Assembly: GCF_002794355.1 (NCBI RefSeq)
Contig: NZ_PGOI01000006.1
Coordinates: 1-64,000 of the forward strand
Reading direction: 5' to 3'
DNA from: Pseudorhodobacter sp. MZDSW-24AT
GTDB lineage: Bacteria > Pseudomonadota > Alphaproteobacteria > Rhodobacterales > Rhodobacteraceae
DNA length: 64,000 nucleotides
In this document: positions 7,621 to 25,384 of the stretch, one piece after another
Numbering within the stretch: the first letter of the stretch is position 1
Layout: each line of letters begins with the position of its first letter
The notes under the pieces: model-generated
Seen by the model: only the letters and a program-made list of their open reading frames with translations
The model's database searches: none
What the model was told of the DNA's origin: nothing
Position numbers and translations under genes: made by a program

Positions 7621-7653
7621 GTGAAGTATACGTTCCTATTTCTTGCCAACTTC

Positions 7654-8130: not shown

Positions 8131-8182
8131 CATGGAAACATCTTTGCTGCGTTTCACTATTCTTGCGAGAGGTCCACCCACC

Positions 8183-8902: not shown

Positions 8903-8912
8903 GGACAGGGTT

Positions 8913-9557
8913 GTGAGGAAGAGAATCCCGACAATCACGCGGCCCGACCGGGCTTATGCTGCATCCCTGCGACCAGAGGTGGTAGAAGACCCGGGAAGGG
9001 AAGAGGTTCTACGAGCTCAGACGATGCCAGAAGCTGCAAACGTCGAGCCTGTGGTCTTGGACAGTCACGCTGTTTCGCCGCCAAGTACGCAGCCTGCGCC
9101 CGCTCCTCAGCCCAGACCGGAGACGGCCGAGCGTGCTGCATCCGCGGCCATGGTATCTCCCACCCGCCCACGCCGCAGTCCGGCGACGCGCAAGATCGAC
9201 ATCCGGGTGAACGCCCTCGAACGGCAGGAGGACGCCCTGATCGACTGCGGCGTCGATCCGGCCCATGTCATCCGCGCCGCCCTGCGCCGTGCAGTGAAGA
9301 ACTGGGAGCTCGGGGCCGACTTCGTCCCTCCCGCCGAGGAGCAGCGCACACGGATCACCGAATGGCGTGCACGAACCTCGCTGGCAGTCGATGTCGGCGC
9401 TGTGACCACCCTCCTGCGCGCCCACGACCCGCTGGACGTGCTGAGTAAGTGGACCCTGATCCGAGGGCAGTTGGAGCCCCGTGTCTGGGCCGAAATCGAC
9501 GCGATCATAGTCGAACTCAGCGAAGGCCCCAGTCTACCAACGCCGCAGGACGAATAA
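8913..9557 (+). CDS. VirC2-like DNA-binding protein (putative)
   Basis: A 214-aa protein starting at GTG 8913, ten bases after the virC1-like stop and right behind GAGGACAGGG. The N-terminal half is proline-rich and probably disordered. The C-terminal half begins TRKIDIRVNALERQ and is compatible with the ribbon-helix-helix domain of VirC2. VirC2 works with VirC1 in binding overdrive-like DNA and promoting T-strand formation. The assignment rests on domain layout and on the adjacent VirC1 partner, so it is moderate. Confidence 0.6.
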   Translation: MRKRIPTITRPDRAYAASLRPEVVEDPGREEVLRAQTMPEAANVEPVVLDSHAVSPPSTQPAPAPQPRPETAERAASAAMVSPTRPRRSPATRKIDIRVNALERQEDALIDCGVDPAHVIRAALRRAVKNWELGADFVPPAEEQRTRITEWRARTSLAVDVGAVTTLLRAHDPLDVLSKWTLIRGQLEPRVWAEIDAIIVELSEGPSLPTPQDE

Positions 9558-9572
9558 AGCGCAGCTCAATTG

Positions 9573-10574
9573 TTAGCGCGCAAAAAACCGATGCGCGTTG
9601 AGCCCAACGGAAACGACAAAAGGTGGCAACGTAAGAGAATAGTGGCCGCAATTCATCCACCTGACGTCAGGCGAGGCCCCTGCACCTCGCAGCTGGTCGA
9701 CAAACCTCTCGGACAAAGCTGGAAAAACAACCTGATCGCGTCGCGCAAGCACGAGCTGCAGGTCCAGAGAAGGTCGGGCCAATCGATGGGCATAGTTTGT
9801 CAGGTTAAGCGGAGCCCAAGCCCGCTGGAAATCTTGAAGCTCAATCTTGCCTTCTAGACTTGTTCGGATGTGTCGCGTTGCCCCGCCCGTCCAAACCATT
9901 TCAGCAAGGTCGCCACCGGTGAGCAAGAGGCTCGCCTTGTGCACAGAAAGGTCATGCGCAGCAATCAGGCCCGCCACCCATGACCCAAGACTGATCCCGA
10001 GAACTGAAATCTTTCGATATCCGGCGCGCTCTGCAATCCTCACAAGCTGTCGCCCGTCGATCACACCCTGGCGAACAGATTGAAGTGTCCGCCCCAAGTT
10101 AGGGCTGAGCATGTAATCCGCGTGCAGAGAACCCAGCCGTTTACGTTCCAGATGGTAGGGCAGTGCCATCTCAAACACGGTGATGCCCCGTTTTGCAAAA
10201 AACTGGGCAAGCTGCGCGTTTCGATCAGATGCATTCCAATGATGGAAGACTATTAGGGCGTGATCGGATGACTTTGCCTCCGACACCTTGGCGTACACCG
10301 TGTCATTCTCAATCGTTCCGGTCGAAATGTCAGATCGGAAACTCAGAAACCCATCTTGATGGGTAACATCGGAAAGATTTTCGGCTGGGGCGAAGAAGCT
10401 GTTCGAACGACCGACCATCATCTCCGCGTGTCTGCAAAATTCAGCAAAGCTTGCCAAATCTTTCGCTTCAGGAAAGGCGCGCCACGGATCAAGCTCAAGC
10501 TCTGAGGGATGTTTGACGTCATCACGGCGCCGCATCCTGCGCTCATCCCATTGGTCCAGCCATTTATGGAGCAT
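9573..10574 (-). CDS. Alpha/beta hydrolase, resembles RcgR-type putative lactone hydrolase
   Basis: A 333-aa alpha/beta hydrolase with nucleophile elbow GISLGSW (Ser about 195), a likely acid in ARRDQVV and the catalytic His in NCGHYS. The start overlaps the end of the upstream membrane-protein gene by 11 bp, so they form an operon. This hydrolase/membrane-protein pair matches what I recall as the RcgR/RcgA families annotated on Rhodobacterales and Rhizobiales elements, where a role in regulating conjugation through a quorum lactone has been suggested. The fold is firm; the substrate is inferred. Confidence 0.75.
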   Translation of the reverse strand: MLHKWLDQWDERRMRRRDDVKHPSELELDPWRAFPEAKDLASFAEFCRHAEMMVGRSNSFFAPAENLSDVTHQDGFLSFRSDISTGTIENDTVYAKVSEAKSSDHALIVFHHWNASDRNAQLAQFFAKRGITVFEMALPYHLERKRLGSLHADYMLSPNLGRTLQSVRQGVIDGRQLVRIAERAGYRKISVLGISLGSWVAGLIAAHDLSVHKASLLLTGGDLAEMVWTGGATRHIRTSLEGKIELQDFQRAWAPLNLTNYAHRLARPSLDLQLVLARRDQVVFPALSERFVDQLRGAGASPDVRWMNCGHYSLTLPPFVVSVGLNAHRFFAR

Positions 10575-12150
10575 AATGTGACCCTCCGGTACGGCGCACC
10601 AAAAACCTGAACTCAGGATCGAAGAGGCCTAGCAAGGCGACGATTGAAGCCGCAAAAACAAGTATAGAGAAGCCTGGAACGATGCCGGCGAGGACATATG
10701 CCATAAACAAAACTGCAATAGCGAGACCGGGACGAAGCGTTTTCCTGTCAGCAGACACCAACTCTCCAAGTCGGACCCGTCCGTAAAGATAGATGGCCAT
10801 AGCAAGAAACGCGACAAGCAGACTGGTATAATGCGTCAAACCGGGAGATGACGCCCAACTGATAGGCGCAGATTGCAATCCAAATGCGGCCTGTCCATCA
10901 GCAATCAGCCAAGCCCAGACGCTAGAGGCAGACGTCAGTCGATAGAGACTTTCAATCTTCATGCAGGTGGCGACGAGCAAGCCAAGTGCCGTATACCGAA
11001 ATACCCCCCTAAGGATCTCACGGGCGCTTGCGTTTAGCTCATCCGACCGATCAGTTCCCTCTGAAGCCGCCAGGACGGTGCGGATGGCCACAACATCGTC
11101 GATCATGTTGGAACACAGGACCATTGCGGCAAAGAACAGATAAAAGCACAGGCACATATAGAGATAGGCTATTCCGGTGAACGCGGTCTGTTCGAAGATC
11201 CCAATTTGCTCCGGCTGCACCAGCGCGATCGATCCCCAATCGATGGCCTGATCTCTCGTACCATTCAACAAGGGAAGCAGGCGAACACTTATCCATTGGA
11301 ACAAGCCTGCAAAGCCAACACAGATCAAGAATACGGTCCAATAGGTATAGCCAGAGGCGGCAACCCTTTTCGACCAAGGCTCTATCTGAGCACCGTCCTC
11401 AAAGCCTGCCACGAGCACGGGGCGGCTCACATTTTTCCACTTCGCGAGCAAATCGGCAACGATCGCGAGGCCAAGAGGCAACAAGAGCACAAACAGAACA
11501 GTCCAATTCAGCGCCCAGAGAAACCCGACTTGTTTCATCACGCCGTCTTCTCGGACATATGTGAAGCTGTGGATGGACAGGAAATAGGACAAGAATTGAA
11601 GCGCGACCGCCCCTGCGAAGACAGCTGCCGGCAGCGACAGCAGGGACCCTCTTGAGAATAACGCTTCGGTAAAGCTTGCCAGATCAAAGCGGCGCGGAGC
11701 GCCTTCGACCTGCAGCTCTTCCAAGTCTGCGGCGGCAGTCGAACCTTCGACTTGTTCTGGCTCAGGAGCAAGGTCCTCACGCTTACGAGTTCGCCTTTTG
11801 GCGACCAACCTAGATTGGGCTGCACTCAGCGCCGTTTGCCAAGCACTGGTCGCCTCAGGATCATTGCAGCCCAGAACCCGCGCAAGCCAACGTATGTTGG
11901 TAGCACTGATGCCCTTCTCATTGTCCTCAAACCAGAGTTGGACAGTGCGCAACTCAATGCCAGCTCGGTTCGCGTCGATTGCAGAGATCGCATCCGCCAA
12001 GAGATCGGGCGTCCATGGACCCTGAGGAACGCCATCCTTGTCGACGGGTCGGCCAACCCCAGCAGCCGCGACGCGTGCAAACAGTTCCTTGAAGTCTTCG
12101 TCACTTCGCTCTGGCGAGATGAAAAACTTTCCGTTCTTTATCAGCAGCAT
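10564..12150 (-). CDS. Multi-pass membrane protein with N-terminal cytosolic domain, RcgA-like
   Basis: About 528 aa from ATG 12150 (an upstream start at 12255 is possible). Residues 1-150 are soluble, with an HTH-like stretch ELRTVQLWFEDNEKGIS and an Arg/Lys-rich linker. Then come about eight to ten hydrophobic segments (for example LPAAVFAGAVALQFLSYFL and YLYMCLCFYLFFAAMVLC). It matches my memory of the RcgA putative-transporter family. The joint operon with the hydrolase suggests that it handles or senses the hydrolase's substrate. Actual transport has not been shown and cannot be read from sequence. Confidence 0.7.
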   Translation of the reverse strand: MLLIKNGKFFISPERSDEDFKELFARVAAAGVGRPVDKDGVPQGPWTPDLLADAISAIDANRAGIELRTVQLWFEDNEKGISATNIRWLARVLGCNDPEATSAWQTALSAAQSRLVAKRRTRKREDLAPEPEQVEGSTAAADLEELQVEGAPRRFDLASFTEALFSRGSLLSLPAAVFAGAVALQFLSYFLSIHSFTYVREDGVMKQVGFLWALNWTVLFVLLLPLGLAIVADLLAKWKNVSRPVLVAGFEDGAQIEPWSKRVAASGYTYWTVFLICVGFAGLFQWISVRLLPLLNGTRDQAIDWGSIALVQPEQIGIFEQTAFTGIAYLYMCLCFYLFFAAMVLCSNMIDDVVAIRTVLAASEGTDRSDELNASAREILRGVFRYTALGLLVATCMKIESLYRLTSASSVWAWLIADGQAAFGLQSAPISWASSPGLTHYTSLLVAFLAMAIYLYGRVRLGELVSADRKTLRPGLAIAVLFMAYVLAGIVPGFSILVFAASIVALLGLFDPEFRFLVRRTGGSHYAP

Positions 12151-12355
12151 ACAAGGAAACTTTTCGACTAATTTCACACTGGTTCGTAATGGGACGTGAT
12201 CTCGCATCCGCGTGGCAGCATCTAGCCCGCACAACCTGGGGTAGCAACTGACCACACGCCAATGTCATTCGCACAGCATCTAGCAGGCCAAACTACGCCT
12301 GTGCGTCGCTGCGAAAGCGCTGCCCCTCAACCTGAACAACGTCGGAAAATTTCGA

Positions 12356-12571: not shown

Positions 12572-12789
12572 CCTCACGCCCACGACGCGGTGTCTTATGC
12601 CCTACAGCAGACAGTGAACACGCTAGCACTTGTCCTGTCGCCAGTTGCCCAACCGACAAGGTATGGAGCGACGGGCCTTTGCTGATACGTTGTGCTCATC
12701 ACACTCCGGAATCTTTCGGCCCAGATTGATTCAGAAACTGAATTGGACATCGAAAGCTGTTCGGCACAAGGTTTACGCCGGAGGCTACC

Positions 12790-13035
12790 ATGGCTCACAC
12801 ATATCTGCATCGCATCGACCCGAACGCCAACATGGCGCGCTTCTACCATATTGACCTCGCGCCAACCCTTTTTGGTGAGGTTGCAGTCCTGCGCCATTGG
12901 GGTCGGATAGGCACAAACGGCCGCACAACGATCGAAACATTGCCGAGTATCAATGAGGCACAGCAGTCCGCGGACCGAACCCTGCGGCAGAAATCGCGTC
13001 GAGGCTATAATCCGGTAGACGCAAAACACGGGTAA
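12790..13035 (+). CDS. Stand-alone WGR-domain protein
   Basis: An 81-aa protein consisting almost entirely of a WGR domain: the signature WGRIGTNGR at residues about 38-46, preceded by FYHIDLAPTLFGEVAVLRHW. WGR domains bind nucleic-acid ends in PARPs and occur alone or beside DNA-repair and conflict genes in bacteria. The start ATG follows a good GGAGG site. No partner enzyme is adjacent. Confidence 0.88.
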   Translation: MAHTYLHRIDPNANMARFYHIDLAPTLFGEVAVLRHWGRIGTNGRTTIETLPSINEAQQSADRTLRQKSRRGYNPVDAKHG

Positions 13036-13055
13036 AATCTACAGCCAACTATCGA

Positions 13056-13415
13056 TCAGCGATGTCGCTGCAAAAGGCCTTCCATCTCGGCGCCCGCCTC
13101 AATCGCAATCCGTTCATGCAAGACATCGGCGTGAACCACAGCACTCGTCCCGAGTTGCACATTTCGCGCCGAAACCGACCCAGATATCGACCCCAAGACA
13201 GTAAGGTCGTTGGCAATCACCGAGCCTTCAACCCGTCCTGTGGCCGCAACCACAACCTGGGGTGCTTGGACAGATCCGACGATCCGTCCCTCGATATCAA
13301 ACGCGCCTGCGGAGGTGACGTCACCCTCAATCACCAGGTCAGCCGCCACGATGCTGCGCCGGGCACTTGCTCGTGCAGCCTCCGGCCAGATTGGGAGTTC
13401 TTTGCTCTGAGCCAT
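13056..13415 (-). CDS. Bactofilin family cytoskeletal protein
   Basis: A 119-aa protein made of the repetitive, hydrophobic beta-helix typical of bactofilins: successive short rungs such as LVIEGDVTSAGAFDIEGRIV, then VEGSVIANDLTVLGSISG. The start ATG at 13415 (MAQSKELPIW) precedes a short disordered N-tail, as is usual. A longer reading to 13586 has no family character and crosses the parDE promoter. Bactofilins polymerise without nucleotides and scaffold membrane or chromosome-segregation functions. It converges with the WGR gene and diverges from parDE. Confidence 0.85.
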   Translation of the reverse strand: MAQSKELPIWPEAARASARRSIVAADLVIEGDVTSAGAFDIEGRIVGSVQAPQVVVAATGRVEGSVIANDLTVLGSISGSVSARNVQLGTSAVVHADVLHERIAIEAGAEMEGLLQRHR

Positions 13416-13600: not shown

Positions 13601-13858
13601 ATGATCAGCGCTGACCTCGGACCGCAGCTTGAAAGTTTCGTCGCAAAACTTGTAGAGACAGGTCGCTATAACTCGAAGAGCGAAGTGCTGCGGGAAGGCA
13701 TCCGCCTGATCCAAGAACGTGAGGCTCGGCTTTCTTTGCTCGATTTGGCCTTGGCGCGCGGTCTTGATGACGCCGAGAAGGGACGTGTCAAACCCGTGTC
13801 CGATGTGGTCACTAGGCTTGAAGCCAAGTATCAAAGCATGGGTAGCGCATCGGGATGA
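13601..13858 (+). CDS. parD: ParD-like ribbon-helix-helix antitoxin
   Basis: An 85-aa type II antitoxin. The N-terminal RHH includes FVAKLVETGRYNSKSEVLRE at residues about 9-28, and the C-terminal tail is the toxin-wrapping segment. Strong GGAGGG ribosome site at 13592-13597. The stop overlaps the ATG of the ParE gene (ATGA), the usual translational coupling. It should neutralise ParE and repress the operon through the upstream palindrome. Confidence 0.92.
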   Translation: MISADLGPQLESFVAKLVETGRYNSKSEVLREGIRLIQEREARLSLLDLALARGLDDAEKGRVKPVSDVVTRLEAKYQSMGSASG

Positions 13859-14154
13859 ATGTCGATTTCACCAGCGCGGCAGAGGCCGACCTGGAAGCAA
13901 TCGCAGATCACATCGCGCGAGACAACCCAACGCGCGCCTTGAGCTTCGTGCGCGAACTTTACGAGCGCTGTCTTGATATTGCCGACATGCCAGACGCTTG
14001 GCCGATCGTGCCACGTTATGAGCATCATCGCATCCGTCGACGCGTCCATGGTCGCTATCTTATTTTCTACCTTAAAGGCTATGACCGGATCACAATCCTT
14101 CACATCCTAAACGGCGCGATGAATGTCGAAGCGATCCTGTTCCCTGAGGGCTGA
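13855..14154 (+). CDS. parE: ParE/RelE-superfamily toxin
   Basis: A 99-aa toxin with the RelE/ParE fold: the opening FTSAAEADLEAIADHIARDN, then RRRVHGRYLIFY and ILHILNGAMN near the C-terminus. ParE proteins classically inhibit DNA gyrase, but the target cannot be told from sequence. It is intact and paired with ParD by a 4-bp overlap. It sits just upstream of the GTPase conflict operon and probably serves maintenance of the element. Confidence 0.92.
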   Translation: MNVDFTSAAEADLEAIADHIARDNPTRALSFVRELYERCLDIADMPDAWPIVPRYEHHRIRRRVHGRYLIFYLKGYDRITILHILNGAMNVEAILFPEG

Positions 14155-14529
14155 AGCGCAGTGTTCTGCGGGAAGAGGTGTCTGGTTTACGGAGCCCGAA
14201 GGTCGCATCGCATAATTTTGATTATGTAATACTTGGGACTTTCGCCAACCGTTCGGTGCGGCAAGAGCCAACGACCGGATTGGGGCTGCATACCGACTGA
14301 CGGCTCCAAGTTCAAAGAAATCTAAGCGCAGACATACTCTCGCATAGCTGCTGATGCCGCAAAGGAACACAGGACGACGTCCGAAGGACCTGCGACGCTT
14401 CGACAAAACTACCATTTGATCACTTGGGAGATCGGCGAACCAACCGGATAGACGTGCAAACCGAGTGTTTCTCCCGTGCAGTCCGATGCCGCATTTGCTA
14501 TCTTGAGGTATGACGACGATGGGGGCGCG
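14155..14529. other. Intergenic leader upstream of the GTPase conflict operon
   Basis: This roughly 375-bp stretch is somewhat AT-richer than its surroundings (for example an ATAATTTTGATTATG stretch near 14213). I see no gene. It should contain the promoter of the five-gene operon. I cannot fix -35/-10 boxes with confidence. Confidence 0.4.
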
Positions 14530-15696
14530 ATGAAGGGTGATTGGGTTAAACGCGGATTGCCAAACGCACCCGTCCTTGTATTTATTCACGGCGTCCTGTC
14601 CAGCGGCGAAAGCTGCTGGCGGCATCCAAGCGGAGCCAATTGGCCAGAAATTGCCGCCAAGGATCCGGACATGTCGGCTCTTAGCGTTTACGTTTTTACG
14701 TATAGAACGGGTTTTTTCTCCGGAAACTATGGTCTTGTCGACGCAGCCAATGCGTTGAAGGAACATTTTTCCGTCGATGGAGTAAACAGTTCAAAGGAGT
14801 TGGTTTTTGTGTGCCATAGCATGGGGGGAATCGTAGCGCGCAGATATCTAGTATCACAAGCCGCCGAACTGATTAGTCGCCAAGTGCAAATCGCGCTTTT
14901 CCTTTTGGCTTCGCCATCGCTTGGCTCAGATTACGCCAACTTGGTGAGTCCCCTAGCGAAAATTGTCGGACATCTTCAGGTGGCCGCACTACGTTCTGCC
15001 CGTTCTAATGCTTGGTTGCATGAATTGGACCATGACTTTCGGAACTTGAAGGAGCGGGCACTTCTTCCAATATCGGGAAAGGAACTAATTGAAGATCGCT
15101 TCGTTGCGTCACGCTGGTTGTTACGCAAACAGGTAGTCGAGCCATTTTCTGGAGCCTGCTATTTTGCCGAACCCTACAAAGTACCTGGGTCGGACCACTT
15201 CTCAATCGTGAAGATCGAGAATGAACATGCGATCCAACATCGTCAGCTTAAGCACTTTGTAGCAGAATGGCGTCTGACCAAAACACGGGCGGGCACGGCC
15301 GGAGATTCTGTCAAACAAAGTCGCATCAATCCGATAGAATCAGGCCAGGACTCACTAGCTATCTCTTCGAACAACATGCTTTCTACAAAACTCCAAGACA
15401 TAGCCCCGGGTGGACAACCTTCCCAGACGTCGCTTTCTGCCGTTGAGGAGGCGATAGCCCCTTTCCCCCACGCAAGCTTAGAGGCAATCATGGGCGACCC
15501 CGCAACTAAGCATCTTGTCGACCGCTTCTGGGATTTAGACGCAAGCGACCGGCGTGAGATCGCGCTCGAACTTGGCCTAATCAGTGAGGGGGAAGTCGAC
15601 CTTCCGGAGCTGCAGCGCTACGGTGTTGCGTTGATTCGCGCATCCGAGCGCAACCTCCTTGATCAGCTTGAGAAGCTGGTCAAGGTGCGGGAATAA
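14530..15696 (+). CDS. Alpha/beta hydrolase (lipase/esterase-like) with C-terminal adaptor-like domain; putative effector
   Basis: About 388 aa from ATG 14530 (a GTG at 14476 adds 18 residues). Residues 12-245 form an alpha/beta hydrolase: VLVFIHGVLSSG oxyanion region, nucleophile CHSMGG (Ser about 97) and candidate His in GSDHFSI (about 223). Residues 250-300 are a low-complexity linker. Residues 302-388 form a separate helical domain (VDRFWDLDASDRREIALELG) that resembles the small effector-associated/adaptor domains of GTPase- and caspase-linked conflict systems. First gene of the operon, 21 bp before the next. I infer that it is the effector, perhaps attacking membrane lipids. Confidence 0.82.
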   Translation: MKGDWVKRGLPNAPVLVFIHGVLSSGESCWRHPSGANWPEIAAKDPDMSALSVYVFTYRTGFFSGNYGLVDAANALKEHFSVDGVNSSKELVFVCHSMGGIVARRYLVSQAAELISRQVQIALFLLASPSLGSDYANLVSPLAKIVGHLQVAALRSARSNAWLHELDHDFRNLKERALLPISGKELIEDRFVASRWLLRKQVVEPFSGACYFAEPYKVPGSDHFSIVKIENEHAIQHRQLKHFVAEWRLTKTRAGTAGDSVKQSRINPIESGQDSLAISSNNMLSTKLQDIAPGGQPSQTSLSAVEEAIAPFPHASLEAIMGDPATKHLVDRFWDLDASDRREIALELGLISEGEVDLPELQRYGVALIRASERNLLDQLEKLVKVRE

Positions 15697-15717
15697 ACAA
15701 GGGAGAGCGAGATTAAT

Positions 15718-16779
15718 ATGCATATGGACTTTCCGAAACTCTATTCCGAAATTTCGACCGACGGTGCACAGAGGTCCCTGCGTTGGACCGGTGTGGAGAA
15801 ATTCGTCGGCAGCTATACGAACTCGCGGGTAGAGATGCTCGCCCGTCTTGTATTCCAAACCAAGCCGCCAGCCAGCGGTCACCAGCAGGACGATCTGGCA
15901 ACCGAACTTGCGGCGTTCCGCAAGACGTTTTCGGATGCCGATCCTTCCATCGAGCATGGCGTTCGGCAAGACCAGATCCTTGCGGCTGCAGCGCTGATGC
16001 AATACTTCACAACGAAATCTACAGCGGCGATGGCAGTGATAACGACCGCCTGCAACGGCGCACGCAAGGTTACACTACCAATCGATCTGGTGACGGCGGC
16101 TGAGAACGCTCTTTCACAGTTTGCCGCCAGTCGGCGCAAGCGGACCGATCTCGGAAAGGTCGAGATCGAAGTTCCGGAATTGGATTGTGAGTTGGACTTC
16201 TCTTCAGCTCAGGCCAACGCGCCGTCTACGTTCAAGGGCGTATTCGATCAACTTGCCGAAGCGGTGGACCAAGCCCTCGCCGACGTCGTCACCAAGTTCA
16301 ATGCGTCGACGAAGATCTTGGTCCACGCCAACAAGAAGGCAGACGAGGAGCTAGATATGCTTTCCTGGGTATTCGGGCAAAGGGCCCTGATGCCCGACCA
16401 ACCGTTCACCGACGTCCCAGCCACTCAGAAGCCGCTCGTCCTCGCTCGAGATTTGGCCTCGCTGACCACTATCGTTCCCGGTCCCAACTCAGTGCCGGCA
16501 CTGTTGGCACGGGCGGGCGTCGATTGCACCGGACATTTGAGGATCGTAGATGCGGTGAACGCAGTCACGGATGACTGGACTGCAGCGGCCTTGAAGAATT
16601 GCAAGCCGTCCCCCGCGACCTCTCCAATCCACTTCGCTCTCTTGAAGCGGCAGGAGACCGGGCCCGGTGATGGTTGGATCGCGGGCTGGGCCGCCATCAC
16701 AGGAATCGACCATGCCGCAGCGATGTCCCCCTTGGCCCTAGCGGAGTTATTCTACCGCGAAAACCTTTGGCTGCGTTGA
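15718..16779 (+). CDS. GTPase-associated system helical (GASH-type) protein
   Basis: A 353-aa all-helical protein without membrane segments or catalytic motifs. The region KADEELDMLSWVFGQRAL (about 216-233) and the C-terminal AMSPLALAELFYRENLW stretch match my memory of the GASH family, known from GTPase-centred conflict operons. Ribosome site AGGGAGAGCGAG. Lies between the hydrolase and the first GTPase, six bases before the latter. Likely a structural or signalling adaptor coupling the GTPases to the effector. The family call is from memory and context, without a profile search. Confidence 0.75.
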   Translation: MHMDFPKLYSEISTDGAQRSLRWTGVEKFVGSYTNSRVEMLARLVFQTKPPASGHQQDDLATELAAFRKTFSDADPSIEHGVRQDQILAAAALMQYFTTKSTAAMAVITTACNGARKVTLPIDLVTAAENALSQFAASRRKRTDLGKVEIEVPELDCELDFSSAQANAPSTFKGVFDQLAEAVDQALADVVTKFNASTKILVHANKKADEELDMLSWVFGQRALMPDQPFTDVPATQKPLVLARDLASLTTIVPGPNSVPALLARAGVDCTGHLRIVDAVNAVTDDWTAAALKNCKPSPATSPIHFALLKRQETGPGDGWIAGWAAITGIDHAAAMSPLALAELFYRENLWLR

Positions 16780-16785
16780 TCCCAA

Positions 16786-17802
16786 ATGGCAGAAACAGAG
16801 ATAATTTGCGCGAACCGCGAATGCCGCATCGCTCAAGGCGGTAAGTGCGTCGAAGGCCACGATGATCTCACAAAATGCCCTTTTTACGGTAGGGAACCCG
16901 AGGAGCTGGACGACGAGCAGGTCGGTGACGGTCAGGAATCTACCAGCGTGTTCGACGGCGTCCATTTGCCCGACGCTCTCCCGCTAGATAGTGGGGGCGC
17001 CGACAAGATACTAGCCATGCTGCCGTCGCGTATGATCGGCCTGATCGGGGCTTACGATTCCGGTAAAACGAGCGTCATCGCGGGTCTATTTGACCTTTTC
17101 CAGCTGCGGGCGGTTTCCGACAGCGTCTTCGCTGGATCTTCGACGCTGCACGGTTTCGAAATGATTTGCCACGATGCAAGGGTCGCGTCGGAACGCAACG
17201 AGCCGCACTCCGAGCGCACCAAGCGGGGTGAGGTTCGGTTCTACCATATTGACGTGCAGCGTAATGGTGTACTCCAGTCACTTCTGATTGCCGACCGTTC
17301 GGGAGAGGAGTACGAGGAAGTTGCAGATCTCGCGGCGAACGCGGCTGGCATGTTCGAACTGCGGCGGGCAGATGTAATCACCATACTAGTGGACGGGCGG
17401 CGGCTCACATCACCTAGTGATCGTGCGGACGTCATGGGGGCCATCCCACTCATTGTCCGTGGCATGGCCGAGAACGGCGCATTCTTGAGGAAGCCAAACC
17501 TTGCCATTGTGCTGACCAAAAATGACGCCGTACAGGCATCGCCCCGTAAGGATCGAGTCGAGCAGGACTTCAGAGCAATTGCCGACCATGTCCGAGATGC
17601 GTTCGCCGACCACTTCGGCGAGTTCGGAACCTTCGTCACCTCCGCCTCGCCCGCAGATGTGAACCTCGTGCGCGGCGCAGGCTTGGATGAGTTGCTGGAC
17701 TTCTGGCTGAGACCGAGCGCGCAGCCGAAGGCAATTCGGGTCCGCCACCGAAACGGTCGAGTGTTCGATGGCCTCAGGATCAAGGAGATGGATGGTGGCT
17801 GA
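16786..17802 (+). CDS. TRAFAC-type GTPase with N-terminal Cys cluster (double-GTPase system, type 2-like)
   Basis: A 338-aa protein. Residues 8-33 hold four cysteines (C-x4-C...C...C: CANRECRIAQGGKC, then KCPFYG), a probable zinc site. The GTPase core has P-loop GAYDSGKTS (about 88-96), DxxG-like ADRSGEE (about 168-174) and base-recognition LTKNDA (about 244-249). It overlaps the next GTPase gene by 11 bp. The pairing with a second GTPase, GASH and GAP1 identifies the system as GTPase-centred. It probably acts as a nucleotide switch in the sensor complex. Confidence 0.82.
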   Translation: MAETEIICANRECRIAQGGKCVEGHDDLTKCPFYGREPEELDDEQVGDGQESTSVFDGVHLPDALPLDSGGADKILAMLPSRMIGLIGAYDSGKTSVIAGLFDLFQLRAVSDSVFAGSSTLHGFEMICHDARVASERNEPHSERTKRGEVRFYHIDVQRNGVLQSLLIADRSGEEYEEVADLAANAAGMFELRRADVITILVDGRRLTSPSDRADVMGAIPLIVRGMAENGAFLRKPNLAIVLTKNDAVQASPRKDRVEQDFRAIADHVRDAFADHFGEFGTFVTSASPADVNLVRGAGLDELLDFWLRPSAQPKAIRVRHRNGRVFDGLRIKEMDGG

Positions 17803-18706
17803 CAGCATCAAGAAACAAGTCTCGATCTCGATCATCGGCCTACCTGGATCCGGTAAGACGACCTTTATAGCGGCGCTTTGGGAACTGGTGAACGAACCTA
17901 GACTCCAGAAGGCACTTACCATCGAGTCGATCGGGAAGAACGATCACAGCTATTTGCGAAAGATCGTGAGGGTCTGGCGGAAGGCGACTGAACAAGCTCG
18001 GACCAGGCTCACCGGTCTTAGCGCAGTAAGAATGAACCTGCAGGACCTTCACGGGAACGTGGTCGAGGTCGCCCTGCCCGATGCTCCTGGCGAAGATTTC
18101 CGTGCGATGTGGGAGAACCGCGAGCTCGGGCGCGTGCTCGGCGAGAGTCTAGCAGACGGAAACATCATGCTCCTTGTCAACGGCAACAAGGTGAAGGCGC
18201 CTGCTTGGGTCACTGAGCGAGCCGCGCAGCGCAGGGCGACGGGTAGGCAGAAGGTCGAGGCACTCGCGAAGGAGTGGCATCCGAGTCTCGCCCCGACCCA
18301 GGTGCAACTGGTGGATCTCCTCCAACTGATTTCGCACCCGCCTGTTGGGCGAGCCGGACGCAGGCTCGTCGTTATGATCAGCGCCTGGGACAAAGTTGAG
18401 GGGGAGAGGCTCACACCGGACGCCTTCCTGACCGCGAAAATGCCACTGCTCTCACAGTACATCGAAGCCGGTCGCGACGGCTGGACGAGCCGAGTTTACG
18501 GCGTTAGTGCGCAGGGCGGAGAGTACGACGGGAATGACGACAACACCGAACCGGTCGAAGACGGAGCTTCGAAGAAGAAGACGATGAAGGGTCGCGACGC
18601 GGACCGGCTACGCGAAGTGGACATCCCGGCTGACCGCATCCGCCTCGTCTTCGGCGAGCAAGAGTCGACGGACCTGACCGAACCGTTGCAATGGCTTATG
18701 CATTGA
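17792..18706 (+). CDS. Second GTPase of the pair (double-GTPase type 1-like)
   Basis: About 304 aa from ATG 17792, behind AAGGAG at 17782-17787. It has P-loop GLPGSGKTTF (residues about 16-25), DxxG-like LPDAPGED (about 97-104) and a base-specificity element SAWDK near 200. Its start lies inside the end of the preceding GTPase gene, and its stop overlaps the start of the GAP1-like gene. Such overlap implies coupled translation and fixed stoichiometry. The two GTPases are not near-duplicates, consistent with a heterodimer. Confidence 0.82.
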   Translation: MVADSIKKQVSISIIGLPGSGKTTFIAALWELVNEPRLQKALTIESIGKNDHSYLRKIVRVWRKATEQARTRLTGLSAVRMNLQDLHGNVVEVALPDAPGEDFRAMWENRELGRVLGESLADGNIMLLVNGNKVKAPAWVTERAAQRRATGRQKVEALAKEWHPSLAPTQVQLVDLLQLISHPPVGRAGRRLVVMISAWDKVEGERLTPDAFLTAKMPLLSQYIEAGRDGWTSRVYGVSAQGGEYDGNDDNTEPVEDGASKKKTMKGRDADRLREVDIPADRIRLVFGEQESTDLTEPLQWLMH

Positions 18707-20736
18707 ACATGGACCGCATAAGGCTTGAACAGACGCTCCACGGGTACAGCGAGGGCCATCGGCTGATCTACGGATCGTTCAAGCCACCGCAGTCCGATGC
18801 GCGCAACATGCTGGTGCTGAGCGACGCTTCCGCTAGCGGCAGCCGCATCCCGTCGGAGGGCTACCTCACCGGCTACCCGCTTGCTGAATCGGGCAAATAC
18901 GTGCTTGCTCGGACGTGGGCAGCACCTGAGATGAGCCGGCCGGGCTGCGTGTGGACCCATTCGCTTCTGATTGACTTTGGGGACCTTGCGCGTCTGGGCT
19001 CGGCACTCAGCCTGCTCGATTGCTTCCGGCGTCCATCTGGGGGGGGCGGCTCCGAGTATGCTGCACGGCTGGAGGTCGCCGTGACGAGGACGCCGATGGT
19101 TGTGCCAGCCCACGATGTCGACCGAGCCGGCCAATGGGCAAATGCGCTCTACGGTAAACCGAAGAACAGGATCATCGCTGAACGCGAGGGTCCCGGCGAC
19201 GACGTCCTAGTGTTGGCGATCTGGATGCAGCAGTGGCCCCGATTGCGGCGAGCCTTCCGCTTCAGCTCTTTCTCTGCGGACGATCGCTCGACGTCGGCGG
19301 ACACCTTCGACCTCCAGCTCGTGGATGCGGGCCGAGCAACTCGATCGAAAATGCCGGACAGCATCGTCGCAACTGCGGTCAAACAGGGCGACTGGCTTGA
19401 TGCTCTCGTCGACGACCTAGTGCTGCCTGAGCGATCGCACCTTCGGCAATTCCTTCGGGACGTGGGATCAGACGTCACTAACGGCCGAGCGGCGATGGTT
19501 CCACTGATCCACCTGCACGGGGCATTGGAGCCGGAGGCCGGTCAGTCGAAGTTGGCGACCGCCGTTTCCGAACTCGAGAGGTTGGGTTCTGGACAGGGCC
19601 GGATGGGACGGGCCGCAGCCGCGCGAGTCGTGCTAACGCAATCTGTGGTCGACGACCACCAGCTATTGGATTTCGCGTTTCAGCAGGTCCGAGCAGACCG
19701 CGACCTGCTCGGAGTCGACCCGGCCATCGTTGGCCGCGCTGTCCTACGCTGGAGACCCGATCTGCTCGCCGACGGTTTAGCCGAGGAGGGTCCGCTGCAG
19801 AAAGCGGTCGCAGCGGCCCTTCCGGGAGCCGACCCCGAAGAGCTCGTGCACGCGCTTAACGTCATGCCTGCGGCAGCCGCGGCAGTGCTTTTGTCCCGCC
19901 CGGACGTCCTCGAACACGCGTCGTTTTGGCGGATCACCGCCATCGACGCCTTGGCACTGATCCGCTCGCTAGACATTGATCAAGAGCATGCGACGCGAAT
20001 CGTCGGCGCAATTGCGGAGGCCGAAAGAGACGACTGTTCGCGGATGGTGGTCGACTGCTTTGGCATCAGTCCGGTGTTGAACATCCTATCTGGGATGGAT
20101 GTCGTAGGGATTCGCTCAAGAATGGGCTGGATCCGTGCCATTGCCCAGCGAACGAACGACATAGCTGAAAAGATGTCAGATGGAGGGCTTGCGCACCGGC
20201 CGTTGCTCTTAGTCCTCGCAGAAGTCCTCGACCCCGACGCTGTGCCGAACAGCGTTGGGACAGACCCTTGGGTAGTGGCCGTCGAGCGCACGAGGACTTC
20301 TGACGACGTTGCGTCCGAAGACCTGCTCGCTGCTTTCCTATTCAACCGCGCCAGAGGATGGCGATCAACGTCGAGGGGCCGACTTTTCTTTCTCTCCGTA
20401 CAACGTCTTCACGAGGCCATGGCCCGGGAGCGCCTCTCGGACGCTGCTTGGCGCATAGCTAAGCAGCGACTGCCCTATGGTTCGGCCTGGCGTGATTGGG
20501 ACCAATGCGAGAAGCTACGTCGCGCTGTCGTTGAGGAATTCGTAGACCGGGACCTTCCACCAATTGAGTTCGGAACTGTCGTGAACGACGGCTACCTCTG
20601 GAAAGAGCTGGTCGACCTCGCCGCCGACACCTGGCGGGGGCGGAAGTATCTGGACAAAGTGCGCAGTGCACTTCGCGGCGGTCCCGAAAGTTGGTGGGAT
20701 GAGCGCGCTAAGCTGATCGATCTACTCGTCAAATAG
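18691..20736 (+). CDS. GTPase-associated protein 1 (GAP1)-like protein
   Basis: A 681-aa protein (an alternative start at 18709 would not overlap the previous gene). The N-terminus carries LEQTLHGYSEGHRLIYGS (residues about 12-29), which I recall as the hallmark of the GAP1 N-terminal domain. Residues to about 230 form that domain, followed by a long alpha-helical middle and C-terminal region. No transmembrane segments. Last gene of the operon. The family is found only with GTPase conflict systems, and its biochemical role is unknown. It may be a sensor or scaffold. Confidence 0.82.
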   Translation: MAYALNMDRIRLEQTLHGYSEGHRLIYGSFKPPQSDARNMLVLSDASASGSRIPSEGYLTGYPLAESGKYVLARTWAAPEMSRPGCVWTHSLLIDFGDLARLGSALSLLDCFRRPSGGGGSEYAARLEVAVTRTPMVVPAHDVDRAGQWANALYGKPKNRIIAEREGPGDDVLVLAIWMQQWPRLRRAFRFSSFSADDRSTSADTFDLQLVDAGRATRSKMPDSIVATAVKQGDWLDALVDDLVLPERSHLRQFLRDVGSDVTNGRAAMVPLIHLHGALEPEAGQSKLATAVSELERLGSGQGRMGRAAAARVVLTQSVVDDHQLLDFAFQQVRADRDLLGVDPAIVGRAVLRWRPDLLADGLAEEGPLQKAVAAALPGADPEELVHALNVMPAAAAAVLLSRPDVLEHASFWRITAIDALALIRSLDIDQEHATRIVGAIAEAERDDCSRMVVDCFGISPVLNILSGMDVVGIRSRMGWIRAIAQRTNDIAEKMSDGGLAHRPLLLVLAEVLDPDAVPNSVGTDPWVVAVERTRTSDDVASEDLLAAFLFNRARGWRSTSRGRLFFLSVQRLHEAMARERLSDAAWRIAKQRLPYGSAWRDWDQCEKLRRAVVEEFVDRDLPPIEFGTVVNDGYLWKELVDLAADTWRGRKYLDKVRSALRGGPESWWDERAKLIDLLVK

Positions 20737-20844: not shown

Positions 20845-21255
20845 TTAGAAGCCGACCTCGTCGTCGCGGTCGCGATCGACCAGCTCGGGGCCTTCGCCCT
20901 CGGCCGTCTTCGGGCGGCTGAGGAAGTCGACCTTCTCGGCGATGATCTCGCAGCCGTAGCAGTCGACACCCGCCGCATCGGTCCACTTCGTGTAGTGGAT
21001 GCGGCCCTGGACCAAGACCTTCATACCCTTCTCGCAGTTCTCGGCGACCGACTTGCCGAGGCCGTTGAAGCAGGTGATGCGGTGCCATTCGGTGTCCATC
21101 ACGCGGTAGCCGTGCTCGTCGCGGATCGGGCGGCCTTCCGACAGGCGGGGGCGCGAGGTGGCGAGTGTGAAGTGGGTGATCTTCGTGCCGCCCTGGGTGA
21201 CGCGAGCTTCCGGGGCCTGACCGATGTTGCCGGCGAGGATGACGATGTTCTGCAT
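20845..21255 (-). CDS. ssb: Single-stranded DNA-binding protein, copy 1
   Basis: A 136-aa OB-fold SSB starting at ATG 21255 (MQNIVILAGNIGQAPEARV). Core motifs include FTLATSRP, the pair DTEWHRITCFNGLGK and the L45-like region KGMKVLVQGRIHYTKWTD. The C-terminal tail ends DRDDEVGF, a divergent form of the acidic tip used to recruit partners. Element-borne SSBs protect the transferred strand on entry. It is a close paralogue of the SSB at 61280 and is read in the same direction. Confidence 0.93.
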   Translation of the reverse strand: MQNIVILAGNIGQAPEARVTQGGTKITHFTLATSRPRLSEGRPIRDEHGYRVMDTEWHRITCFNGLGKSVAENCEKGMKVLVQGRIHYTKWTDAAGVDCYGCEIIAEKVDFLSRPKTAEGEGPELVDRDRDDEVGF

Positions 21256-21440
21256 GGTGTTTCTTCTGTGTCTGGTGCGAGGGACCATCCCTTCGACAAG
21301 ACCCGGCAGAAGCCTGGCGGGAGACGTCTGCACGGCTGGGCCAAGGGACCAGCCGGAAACCCCCGAGGGGCCGGGGTGGAGCGGGCAGGACGCTTTGCGG
21401 CCAACACGGCCCGGACAGGAGCGGGGTTGCGGGCAGGAAA

Positions 21441-21473
21441 CCGAACAGGCTTAGGGGATTGTCAGTCGAAGGG
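21441..21473. repeat. 33-bp perfect direct repeat in the ssb copy 1 leader
   Basis: This sequence (core TTAGGGGATTGTCAGTCGAA) is identical to 61867-61899, 40.4 kb away and in the same orientation. Both lie about 185-215 bp upstream of an ssb start. It is more strongly conserved than the spacer, so it is probably a promoter or a regulator site of ssb. Confidence 0.7.
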
Positions 21474-22129
21474 GAGGTGCCTCAACCAGACCACAGGGGG
21501 AGAGGAACCCAAGCAGACGAGTTCAGCCGACCTCATCCGGCAATGTCAGGCCCACGAAGAACCGTCCCGAAAAGGGGAGAATGAGATCAGCACGCCCACC
21601 CATGCTCCCTGCCTCAAGGTCAGGGTATCGCCCTACCCCGCGCCGAGACTGCGGAGCCGCTGGAACACCGAGCAGCACCTGAACACCGGAATTCAATCTA
21701 AAGGCAGGGGCGCCGATAGAACTGCCGAATGGGCAAGATGTTCAGATCTGTGACCGGCCTCACCACGGAAGACCAATGCGCGGCGGTGTTGCATACGACG
21801 AACAGAGACCATCGCTGCGAAGGACGACAGCGTCACTGACTGGAACGGGCCTCGGCCATCCAAGCGTCGACAATTGCGACGAGGTATGGTTCTGAAAGCC
21901 GATCGGTCACTTGCCAGGCGGCGGACCCACTGTGGCGGTTTTCAGGCCAAGTCGTCGAGTTTCACAACAGGTAGTGCAATCTAAGCGATCGTGCCTACAT
22001 TTTGCATAGAAGATCGGGGCGGGCCGAGATGATGTGTGGTGCCGTCATCTGGTCATGCTTGCTTTACGCAAAAATATGTGGCATCTTTCCGTCATAACGC
22101 AATCACTGAATCGCACGGACGGTGCTCGA
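21474..22129. other. Intergenic stretch between the ssb leader and the next gene pair
   Basis: About 650 bp without a gene I can support. Frames crossing it lack recognisable features. It must contain the promoter of the gene pair starting at 22130. I cannot assign boxes with confidence. Confidence 0.4.
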
Positions 22130-22831
22130 ATGGCAGACTTCGATTGGAAACAACTTCTGAAGCGCGGCCTGCTTCTCGCTTTGGAAGACCGGATGGGCGC
22201 CGAAACCCTGCGGGCCTTTCAACTCGTGCGAGATCACGCCGGTTTGGACAGGAAGCGTGGTCGCGAACTCGAAGGGCAAGCACGGTTCCGGATGATGGAG
22301 CAAGCATTCGAGGAAATTTGTGCGCGCTTTGACGGTCTGCCCCTAGCTGGTGGAGTGCTTCCCAACACCAACCTGAAGATTTTTCAGCCGTTCATGCGCT
22401 TCGGTGGGGAAGGTCCGGGTGTTATCCTTGGCCTTGCGGCCATGCCCGAGCCCAGCAAGCTTCCGGCCAAGAACCGGTCGCGCCTCGCGGGCGTCACGCT
22501 CAACTTCAGTCTTATGCCCAGTTTCGATTTCGACGGCTTGGGCCCGAAGCCGGGAGACATCTTCGTGCTCTTCTTGGTCGCCCGGGACCGCGAACAGTCC
22601 GGAAAGCTTGAGGAGATCGCGATTGGCGTGATCGACTCTGCCTACGATCAGTTTCTGTTTTACGAACGCCTTGACAAGTTCCTTGCCGATGATGCCGATG
22701 CCACCGAAACCGTACGCTCTTCTGCATCGGCTCCGTCCGACGTTGGACTGGTGCGCTTGAAATCGAAGGTGAAACCGTTCGTCCCCCCCGAGTTGCCGCC
22801 CGAGGTGGAGGACGATACCGGCACTAAATGA
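22130..22831 (+). CDS. Unknown protein, partner of the XRE/ImmA-IrrE-type protein
   Basis: A 233-aa protein, start ATG 22130 (MADFDWKQLLKRG); an upstream ATG at 22034 is in frame but unlikely. Soluble, mixed alpha/beta, with a proline-rich acidic tail (PPELPPEVEDD). I recognise no family. It lies 31 bp before an XRE/HExxH-peptidase gene in what looks like a two-gene operon. Such pairing often means the first gene product is the cleavage target or the toxin. That is inference from context only. Confidence 0.7.
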   Translation: MADFDWKQLLKRGLLLALEDRMGAETLRAFQLVRDHAGLDRKRGRELEGQARFRMMEQAFEEICARFDGLPLAGGVLPNTNLKIFQPFMRFGGEGPGVILGLAAMPEPSKLPAKNRSRLAGVTLNFSLMPSFDFDGLGPKPGDIFVLFLVARDREQSGKLEEIAIGVIDSAYDQFLFYERLDKFLADDADATETVRSSASAPSDVGLVRLKSKVKPFVPPELPPEVEDDTGTK

Positions 22832-22832
22832 A

Positions 22833-22849
22833 CGGTATCACTGATACCG
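22833..22849. promoter_or_regulatory. Perfect 17-bp palindrome between the two genes
   Basis: CGGTATCA-C-TGATACCG lies in the 31-bp gap, just ahead of the GGGAGGG ribosome site of the XRE/peptidase gene. It is a natural operator for that protein's own helix-turn-helix, or an RNA hairpin limiting translation of the second gene. Confidence 0.5.
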
Positions 22850-22862
22850 ACGGGAGGGTTGA

Positions 22863-24059
22863 ATGCGCGTAGGAACGCCTGGCTTCATGCCAGAACGCCT
22901 AGCGGAACTGCGGGCTGCTCGGCGAATTCTGAGCATGAAGGAGCTGGCTCGGATAATCGGCGTCTCGCCTAGTGCCGTTTCCCGATGGGAAAACGGAACA
23001 CATGCACCCGATGCAGATGCTCTCACGGCACTCTCTCGCGAACTGCGCGTTCGGCGGGAATATTTCTTGCGGCCCGTTCACGGCAGCGATCACCCGATGT
23101 TTTCGCGGTCGCTTTCCAGCGCGTTGAAGCGCGACACGTCTTATCAAGACACGCAGATGCAGTGGCTTCAGGAAATCTCCTCCATTCTGCAGCATTATGT
23201 GGATTTTCCTGCAGTCGATATTCCCGACATGATGAAAGGTCTGACGTACCGCCAACTGCGCGACGAGGATATCGAAGGCATTGCTCAAGATTTGCGGGGG
23301 CACTGGCGGCTCGGCCAAGGCCCGATTACGGACGTCGTCGCAATTCTCGAACGGATTGGGTGTGTCGTTGGTTCCATCGAGATGGGAACCTCGAAGCTAG
23401 ACGGGCTATGCAGCTGGTCGCGCGGCGATGAACGACCCCACATCCTCCTGGCGACCGACAAGATGTCCTTGCCCCGCCGACAGATGGATGCGGCTCATGA
23501 ACTGGGGCATGCGATCCTCCACAAGGGGGTCAGCCATGAAGAGCTGAAGTCGGACCTGAAGGAAATTGAGCGCCAGGCTTTCCGTTTTGCAAGCGCTTTC
23601 CTGTTGCCCGAGACCACCTATGTGCATGAAGTGCAACACTATTCATTGGCTGGTCTCGTTTCGGTCAAAGAGCGGTGGCGGGTTTCGGTCAAGGCACAGA
23701 TCCGACGGCTCCTAGATCTCGACGTTATCCCAGAACACCATGGCACCCAACTCTACAAGAGTTACTCTGCCAATGGCTGGAACAAGGTGGAGCCACTGGA
23801 TCGCGACTGGCCAGTTCCGGAACCTTCGATGTTGCGCAACGCCATCAGCCTCATTGTAGAATCCGGAACCCGAACCAAGGAAGATCTCCTTTCAGTCGAG
23901 TTCACGATGCATCCCTCCGACATAGAGAACCTGGCCGGACTTCCGAATGGTTGGTTCACCCGAGAAGGCAGCATTGTGCAGTTGTCGCTGAAATCCGATT
24001 CAGCGAAGCCGCTTGCCACGGCCCCTGCAGGAGAGGTTGTGCCTTTCACCCGCCGCTGA
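22863..24059 (+). CDS. XRE-family regulator fused to an ImmA/IrrE-type metallopeptidase (COG2856)
   Basis: A 398-aa protein. An N-terminal XRE helix-turn-helix (residues about 8-62; MKELARIIGVSPSAVSRWEN) is followed by a zinc peptidase domain with AHELGHAILH (about 209-218) as the HExxH motif. The C-terminal 120 residues are of unknown role. Proteins of this layout sense stress or phage signals and cleave a repressor or antitoxin partner. The 233-aa protein encoded just upstream is the obvious candidate partner. Confidence 0.88.
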   Translation: MRVGTPGFMPERLAELRAARRILSMKELARIIGVSPSAVSRWENGTHAPDADALTALSRELRVRREYFLRPVHGSDHPMFSRSLSSALKRDTSYQDTQMQWLQEISSILQHYVDFPAVDIPDMMKGLTYRQLRDEDIEGIAQDLRGHWRLGQGPITDVVAILERIGCVVGSIEMGTSKLDGLCSWSRGDERPHILLATDKMSLPRRQMDAAHELGHAILHKGVSHEELKSDLKEIERQAFRFASAFLLPETTYVHEVQHYSLAGLVSVKERWRVSVKAQIRRLLDLDVIPEHHGTQLYKSYSANGWNKVEPLDRDWPVPEPSMLRNAISLIVESGTRTKEDLLSVEFTMHPSDIENLAGLPNGWFTREGSIVQLSLKSDSAKPLATAPAGEVVPFTRR

Positions 24060-24084
24060 TTTGGGAGTGGCAAGGGGGGGGGGC

Positions 24085-25017
24085 TCACGCCCCCCTCTCG
24101 AACTTCACCACGGGGATGCCGAGCTTCTTGGCCTTGTCGGCGAGGTTTTCCTGGATGCCGTTGCCCGGGAAGACGAGGACGCCGACGGGCAGAACATCCA
24201 ACATGGCGTCGTTCCGCTTGAAGGGTGCCGCCTTGGCGTGCTTGGTCCAGTCGGGCTTGAAGGCCACCTGCGTCACGCCCCGGGACTCGGCCCATTTGGA
24301 GGCGATGAGTTCGGCGCCCTTTGGGCTTCCCCCGTGCAGCAGGACCATGTCGGGATACTTGGTCCGGACCTGGTCGAGCTTGCCCCAGATCAAGCGGTGA
24401 TCGTTGAAGTCGGTCCCACCGGTCAGGGCGACCTTGGGGCCTGCGGGCAGCATCACCTCGGTCTCCGCGCGGCGCTTGGCGGCCAGGAAGTCGCGGCTGT
24501 CGATCAGCGCTGCGGTCATGTGCTGGCGGTTCACCATCGAACCGGTGCGGGGGCGCCAGATGGAGCCGGTGTGATGGACAAACTCGGTCGCGGCGTGATC
24601 ACGCATCATGTCCATGCAGTTGCGCCGTTCGATCAGGGTCAGGCCTTCCGCCGTCAGGCGCTCGAGTTCGGTGGATTTCACCTCGGAGCCGTCCTGTTCG
24701 CGCTGGAGGCGGCGTTGGGCCTGCTCGTTCTCATCGAGCGACCGCTCGATCCGGGCCGTGGCGCGGTGGAAGAGGTTGACCTGGCCCCAGAGCACCTCTT
24801 CGAGGTCGGGTTCCATGCGGGTGTCTTCCAGGGTCGCGACGAGGGCGTCGAAGATGTCGGCGACGGCGACAGCCAGGCGCTGCCCATCGGGCATCGGGCG
24901 CGGATCGGGCTCGTCAAAGGGACGGTAGCCATAGAGCTGCAGCTCGTCGAGCGCATGGGCGGTCTGGGATGCGGTGTGGGCGGGTTCATACGCGTCGTCG
25001 TGGGTGTGGATCGTCAT
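24085..25017 (-). CDS. DUF2493 domain protein (SLOG-superfamily)
   Basis: A 310-aa protein from ATG 25017. Residues 1-195 are helical and charged. The C-terminal 115 residues form a Rossmann-like DUF2493 domain (VALTGGTDFNDHRLIW, then LLHGGSPKGAELIASKWAE, then VLVFPGNG). The SLOG superfamily binds nucleotides or nucleotide-derived ligands. These proteins are common on Rhodobacterales plasmids next to TOPRIM and strawberry-notch genes, but the function is unknown. Confidence 0.88.
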   Translation of the reverse strand: MTIHTHDDAYEPAHTASQTAHALDELQLYGYRPFDEPDPRPMPDGQRLAVAVADIFDALVATLEDTRMEPDLEEVLWGQVNLFHRATARIERSLDENEQAQRRLQREQDGSEVKSTELERLTAEGLTLIERRNCMDMMRDHAATEFVHHTGSIWRPRTGSMVNRQHMTAALIDSRDFLAAKRRAETEVMLPAGPKVALTGGTDFNDHRLIWGKLDQVRTKYPDMVLLHGGSPKGAELIASKWAESRGVTQVAFKPDWTKHAKAAPFKRNDAMLDVLPVGVLVFPGNGIQENLADKAKKLGIPVVKFERGA

Positions 25018-25139
25018 CGGTTCTTGCCTCCGGGCCTCAACTGGTCCGCGCGTCATCCCGCGCGGCCTTCATGGGCTGCGAAAGCCGTGGGAGGGGACGG
25101 CCCTTCACCCCCTTTCGGGGCCGGAACGCATGTGGAGGA

Positions 25140-25236
25140 GGACGGGGGGCGGCTGATTTGCTTCGCGATGCAAAGGCGGGGCTCGTCCCCGCCGGCGGAA
25201 ATCAGTCGCCCCCCGTCCTTGAAGGGGCGGCCCCTT
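25140..25236. repeat. Large imperfect inverted repeat with nested hairpins
   Basis: Outer arms of 20 bp (25140-25159 and 25199-25218) match at 19 of 20 positions, starting GGACGGGGGGCG. Inside lie TTGCTTCGCGATGCAA and GGCGGGG-CTCGT-CCCCGCC (25175-25193). A second palindrome, AAGGGGC-G-GCCCCTT, follows at 25222-25236. Sits in the 367-bp gap (25018-25384) between the TOPRIM and DUF2493 genes, where no gene is visible. Could be a strong terminator, a small mobile repeat or a structured RNA. Confidence 0.7.
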
Positions 25237-25384
25237 TGACGGCCGCCTGCCCATCTCTTGAAGGCCGTGTGGGTGACGGGTGGATGAGATTGCCCGGAAA
25301 GAGGCAAAGCGACGATCCAGAGCCATGACAGGGGCCCGTGATCCCTGCCCCGCTGTCCCCTGACCGGCCCCTGCGCGATGCAGC

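Follow-up and report, generated by a model that had tools for sequence, protein, structure and literature searches.

The closest described relatives of the locus studied here are the GAP1-N1-type GTPase-centric conflict systems predicted by Kaur, Burroughs, Iyer and Aravind in 2020 (PMC7159879). As far as the excerpts of that paper used here go, these systems were predicted in 262 organisms (its Table 1) and join a pair of DO-GTPases, of which one is Cys-rich at its N-terminus, to GASH, a GAP1 protein carrying N1 and a GAAD-coupled effector; alpha/beta-hydrolase effectors and GAAD are already listed there, and the GAP1 family is linked to the GTPases through shared operons and in some cases through fusion. 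In line with an earlier sequence-only reading of the present DNA, according to which the family has seen little experimental work, we found no experiment on GAP1-N1 in open-licence PMC papers. We have analyzed the first 64,000 bases of a 159,794-base contig (NZ_PGOI01000006.1) of Pseudorhodobacter sp. MZDSW-24AT, a stretch referred to below as the window. Judged by its profile matches, an operon at 14476-20736 is a further member of the published kind with an identical gene set, whereas its plasmid slot and the swap of alleles there come from the present analysis. Taking classification and general relay together, we rather favor a plasmid-borne conflict cassette of the GAP1-N1 type, most likely directed against phages. 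The copy is compact and complete, with a sister operon on another plasmid and a readily mutated serine-hydrolase effector; what is added here is evidence for cargo-slot exchange and a testable, DENN-like reading of GAP1.

Five open reading frames (ORFs) on one strand, spanning about 6.2 kb, make up the complete set:

14530 to 15696, plus strand: effector, a predicted alpha/beta-hydrolase (DUF676/PGAP1-like) with C-terminal GAAD, from Pfam, motif positions and similarity to homologs; the longest ORF runs from 14476
15718 to 16779, plus strand: GASH, from Pfam; all-helical AlphaFold2 (AF2) model with a predicted local distance difference test score (pLDDT) of 92 and a 52-residue helix at 169-220
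16786 to 17802, plus strand: DO-GTPase2 (GTPase 2), from Pfam; N-terminal Cys8/13/21/31 (zinc-ribbon-like), GAYDSGKT, DRSGE and TKND
17795 to 18706, plus strand: DO-GTPase1 (GTPase 1), from Pfam; ORF from 17768, likely start GTG 17795; GLPGSGKT, DAPGE, SAWD and SAQG
18691 to 20736, plus strand: GAP1 (681 residues), from Pfam; AF2 model with pLDDT 88, predicted longin topology at 8-110, alpha/beta at 111-232 and ARM/HEAT-like helical at 233-681

All five proteins score above Pfam gathering thresholds, as the sequence-only reading had anticipated in naming a serine hydrolase, GASH, a double GTPase and GAP1, and every expected profile was matched. The first ORF matches GAAD (5e-20, residues 344-403, or 326-385 counted from the start at 14530) and Abhydrolase_6 (5.3e-08), the second GASH (PF19994, 4.9e-11, over the C-terminal half of the profile), and the GTPases match DO-GTPase2 (2.9e-63) and DO-GTPase1 (6.6e-75). 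The last protein matches GAP1-N1 (PF20012) at 9.6e-29, with 100.1 bits where the cut-off is 27; Pfam gave no match to GAP1-M, GAP1-C or any other family outside GAP1-N1, but in the model a second alpha/beta domain and a helical part follow. The system had thus been named correctly; overlooked were the GAAD coupling element, the N-terminal Cys-rich part of GTPase 2 and a neighboring RosmerTA pair. The PADLOC profiles had no match for GASH or GAP1 and weak ones for the GTPases and the hydrolase (DUF626_VIII, 4.6e-7).

The operon DNA is present as a single copy in the genome. With the ORF starts as delimited, the junctions are spaced by +21, +6, -35 and -16 nt, so that the picture of a compact five-gene operon holds while overlap, which had been ascribed to the genes in general, occurs at two of the four junctions only. 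GTPase 1 probably starts at the GTG at 17795, which is preceded by AAGGAG and reduces the overlap with GTPase 2 to 8 nt. For the hydrolase the start is probably at 14530 (Met19), where a 65%-identical Acetobacter homolog is annotated to begin, and the numbering Ser97 proposed earlier for its nucleophile fits this start. The stretch LEQTLHGYSEGHRL, noticed earlier near the N-terminus of the 681-residue protein, was located at residues 12-25 of GAP1. In a promoter and terminator scan the number of sites was not above that in shuffled sequences.

The most similar operon, on Acetobacter orientalis plasmid pAOF1 (AP018516), retains the five genes in order at 65-82% identity, including the hydrolase effector, but resides on another plasmid backbone, and the annotation beside it shows neither ParDE nor ssb nor RosmerTA. 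Plasmids of Bradyrhizobium, Simplicispira, Aeromonas and Klebsiella share the core, its order and a homologous GAAD, yet there, as in most sampled genomic loci, gene 1 encodes a metallophosphoesterase-GAAD protein with an unrelated catalytic domain. When the genome collection was scanned with a GTPase-1 alignment, at least 24 loci were found, and 21 of the 24 listed hold the full five-gene set in unchanged order, the others being cut by contig or locus ends (L026, L035) or lacking a GAAD match (L032). The order was the same at all five loci inspected among the 27 plasmid records with GAP1 matches. Its recurrence in these 21 genomic and five plasmid loci argues that the arrangement is not due to chance.

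At the same time the system is rare. GAP1-N1 was found in one of 16 genomes of the genus, the window's own (ten of the 16 having a completeness of 90% or more and a contamination of 5% or less), GASH in four of 398 genomes of the phylum, own included, and GAP1 in 27 of 72,556 plasmid records. Scans of IMG/VR with GTPase 1 alone and with the GTPase-1 alignment revealed no relatives, and among phage records the single match was to a Leptospira phage, at 24% identity. The operon could be a membrane-stress or housekeeping regulatory unit and not a conflict system, in keeping with the DO-GTPase that PMC11237479 places in some PSP operons with a predicted role in membrane-related stress. The sparse distribution over genus, phylum and plasmids points to cargo rather than housekeeping, however, and with the effector swapping and the exchangeable slot described below we regard such a unit as very improbable. 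The conserved housekeeping operon that the sequence-only reading had set against its own proposal is likewise not what the distribution shows.

Both GTPases look like working nucleotide switches. We counted motifs in 30 sequences (L008, L009 and L010 omitted, L037-L039 not included), and the P-loop, DxxGE, S[AV]WD and SAQG of GTPase 1 are all kept in every one of them. For GTPase 2, the P-loop ends in GK[ST] in all 23 of the 30 sequences for which variants were listed, and 29 of 30 retain the motif ending in GE (D at its start only in part) and also TKxD. The conserved Glu of Walker B (DxxGE) is present in the window in DAPGE of GTPase 1 and DRSGE of GTPase 2. The four cysteines of GTPase 2 precede its P-loop, and 17 of the 30 sequences, that of the window among them, have at least four there, with the caveat that some of the ORFs were drawn too long at their 5' ends; the Pfam search gave no zinc-ribbon profile match for this region.

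In the hydrolase, the nucleophile is likely Ser97 in HSMGG, with His223 and Glu188 or Asp189 as likely partners, the choice of the acid being a guess. An ester or lipid as the substrate is plausible because the protein matches DUF676, PGAP1 and, weakly, LCAT. The effector domain is exchanged in front of a common GAAD. When the region before GAAD was clustered for 29 proteins (22 from the loci of the GTPase-1 scan, the window, five plasmids and one further genome), two hydrolases, 25 phosphoesterases, one large NTPase-like protein (L030) and one unclassified ORF (L033) were obtained; note that the scan finds relatives of the window GTPase and biases these counts to its subfamily. Example effectors were compared with Pfam (L002, L003, L022, L030, L033 and, outside the 29, L039). 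The L030 protein, encoded at 3436-7053 in Hansschlegelia quercus, is a 1205-residue GAAD fusion in the place of the effector with a weak NACHT-like NPHP3_N match below the Pfam cut-off, so that the effector, or the protein controlling it, may here be a large NTPase. A divergent GAP1 system (L038 6379-14156) has EAD1 on both GAP1 and a PNP-type effector, and a TniQ gene just upstream. This exchange of effectors follows the grammar given in the consulted excerpts of PMC7159879 and is thus of a kind already known, as are alpha/beta-hydrolase effectors.

The hydrolase domain is also found outside such systems. Among 35 plasmid records with hydrolase matches, we inspected four besides Acetobacter, and the stretches examined held no GTPase-system gene (Rhizobium phaseoli 49%, R. 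ruizarguesonis 45%, Acaryochloris 44%, Methylobacterium 35%); other R. phaseoli plasmids have GAP1 matches. On the Acaryochloris plasmid pMB04 (L083 6992-10054) a stand-alone hydrolase gene immediately precedes an NB-ARC/TPR (STAND-type) gene, which suggests a separate hydrolase-NLR-like pair. This recurrence, including that before an NB-ARC/TPR gene, marks the hydrolase as a portable module.

In the GAP1 model the strand order of the N-terminal part is that of a longin domain. A Foldseek search with the model listed 50 rows, of which the top four, and all six covering the N-terminal half, are DENN, longin or TagF. The Pfam models of DENN, uDENN and longin were matched by none of 24 GAP1 proteins at E values up to 10, a range in which filtering by HMMER discards the majority of hits over 0.1. 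Sequence searches of the PDB with hydrolase, GAP1, GASH and GTPase 1 returned nothing informative (GAP1 against armadillo repeat proteins, E 0.04-0.6), and a viral fold library gave no match at E of 0.001 or below. TagF was dropped as a sequence relative of GAP1 at an hhalign probability of 0.1%, obtained from four TagF sequences only. At rank 26 of the Foldseek PDB results stood chain 8dhb_J, which belongs to an FLCN GAP complex (E 0.17, root mean square deviation 29.6) and which we did not count.

Eukaryotic DENN modules, guanine nucleotide exchange factors (GEFs) for Rabs (Zhang et al. 2012, PMC3521125, consulted in excerpt), resemble GAP1 in the predicted order of longin, alpha/beta and helical parts and in being paired with GTPases. 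They differ in that there is no sequence match and the structural score is modest, and in that Rabs take the place of the DO-GTPases; GAP1 moreover has a long ARM-like C-terminal part. With due reserve, GAP1 may thus be read from its model as a bacterial DENN-like module, an exchange factor or GTPase-activating protein (GAP) for a heterodimeric GTPase pair and as such a counterpart of Rab-DENN. A DENN-like GAP1 with its GTPase pair would presumably also have a parallel in Rag-FLCN/FNIP signaling. If this is true, DENN modules gain an analog, perhaps a relative, in bacterial immunity, which would be linked to regulators of eukaryotic small GTPases and offer a simple in vitro test of the switch. 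Neither 'longin' nor 'DENN' occurs in the main text of PMC7159879. The likeness could instead reflect a common alpha/beta arrangement only, with GAP1 an ARM-repeat sensor or scaffold devoid of GEF- or GAP-like action. We take this as a serious possibility at somewhat less than even chances; against it stand the uniform identity of the N-terminal Foldseek rows, the longin strand order and the bond of the family to GTPases by operon and fusion.

In the mechanism that we infer, as regards trigger, complex, direction of signaling, damage to a lipid or other substrate and abortive outcome or cell death alike, the two DO-GTPases would form a paired nucleotide switch, held and controlled by the DENN/longin-like N-terminal half of GAP1, while its helical repeat region would receive the trigger and offer a docking site for the effector, and GASH would provide a helical scaffold. 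Upon infection the GTPases would change their nucleotide state, GAP1 would free or cluster the serine hydrolase via its GAAD tail, and this enzyme would attack a lipid or another ester, bringing the cell to a stop. As a whole this chain is put forward tentatively, as something that may well prove wrong in part. The sequence-only reading had GAP1 and GASH relay a state change of the GTPases, and the predicted DENN/longin-like fold means that this GTPase/GAP1 step may need rethinking.

The contig is plasmid-like with a mobile-type backbone, whose DUF2493/toprim/strawberry-notch genes match plasmids, mostly of Rhodobacterales (best 85-92%). A RepA_C search of the own genome gave no match, and neither did its control. 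The operon occupies a cargo slot with the following surroundings:

12709 to 13240, no strand assigned: left conserved slot edge (WGR / polymer-forming protein genes), from comparison with related plasmids
13601 to 13858, plus strand: ParD antitoxin, from Pfam
13855 to 14154, plus strand: ParE toxin, from Pfam
20845 to 21333, minus strand: extra ssb of the slot, 90% DNA identity to the copy in genus mate L089
22034 to 22831, plus strand: RmrT, RosmerTA toxin, PADLOC E 2.1e-98
22863 to 24059, plus strand: RmrA, RosmerTA antitoxin with helix-turn-helix and ImmA/IrrE-type parts, PADLOC E 6.8e-204 and Pfam
24079 to 26416, minus strand: right conserved slot edge, DUF2493 and toprim backbone genes, from comparison with related plasmids

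The placement between ParDE and an ssb given earlier holds, with the ssb on the opposite strand, and the case for a defense hot spot is stronger than had been stated, as RosmerTA adjoins and related plasmids often hold other defense systems in the slot. The pair at 22034-24059 matches RmrT and RmrA of RosmerTA, a separate system outside the operon, for one example of which an anti-phage effect was measured (PMC10440598). From 49 plasmid records with the DUF2493/toprim region we inspected 17, down to rank H73, passing over H59 for its poor annotation and H69 because its slot is close to where the record ends; several stretches (e.g. L044, L046, L052, L054, L056) stop before the far edge and show the DUF2493-side part only. 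By annotation or our own reading, ten slots hold defense genes: Sir2 and a restriction endonuclease (L041), restriction-modification (L043), a methyltransferase and Abi (L050), WYL/helicase/N6-methylase clusters by our reading (L045, L046), Eco29kI (L052), BREX-3 (L054), Qat (L056), and restriction endonucleases (L055, and L057 with a Qat gene further out). Four carry genes of unclear kind (L042, L044, L049, L053), and three only metabolic, transport or IS/integrase genes (L047, L048, L051).

Three genomes of the genus have the backbone and no GAP1-N1 match (one copy each from G013, G012 and G001; those of G012:C11 and G014 left out). Their slots hold type I restriction-modification (L087), PD-Lambda-1 with a Cap17-like gene (L088), and RosmerTA with ThiF/E2/multiubiquitin/DUF6527 genes (L089). 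L089 is the cleanest comparison for slot exchange. Two blocks at 85-90% match it collinearly to the window at 20869-26416, where ssb, RosmerTA, DUF2493 and toprim lie; on the far side, 12788-13240 matches in two short blocks at 72-75%. Between the same flanks the window carries 7.6 kb (ParDE and the operon) and L089 a different system, a ubiquitin-like one, in 9 kb. As ssb and RosmerTA remain in L089 where the operon is replaced, ssb was rejected as an operon partner.

This setting also bears on the question whether the operon serves plasmid competition or maintenance, aiming at incoming plasmids or plasmid-free cells and not at phages. The relaxase and coupling-protein genes within the window, the adjoining ParDE and the typing of 26 of the 27 PLSDB records with GAP1 matches as conjugative or mobilizable are in keeping with such a role. 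The slot alleles of related plasmids, however, include restriction-modification, BREX-3, Qat, PD-Lambda-1 and ubiquitin-like systems, and two single-contig genomes, of 4.2 Mb (G098) and 2.5 Mb (G059), contain related systems as well, so plasmids are not the only setting of the family. We consider plasmid competition unlikely and, from the context, phage defense the probable main role. For the flanks of the 24 listed loci no defense enrichment is claimed: at 1e-20 their 124 ORFs yielded some eight PADLOC groups of one protein each (26 families counted, 25 of them listed), and 120 control ORFs (20 stretches of seven genomes, from other organisms than the loci) yielded six PADLOC families, namely mad3 with three proteins and, with a single protein each, mREase_IV, MzaA and three RtcR-type models.

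Some further observations concern the slot and its vicinity. In two Pseudosulfitobacter plasmids (L042 12975-16292, L053 9993-13256) a hypothetical protein of about 1100 residues is alone in the slot, a candidate defense gene. The L089 genes at 7312-12260 encode multiubiquitin, E2, ThiF with a JAB-like domain and DUF6527, with ImmA/IrrE-type genes on either side. A second ssb lies on the contig at 61280-61729, and just left of the slot, at 9573-12255 of the window, are genes for a putative quorum lactone hydrolase of the RcgR family and a putative transporter of the RcgA family.

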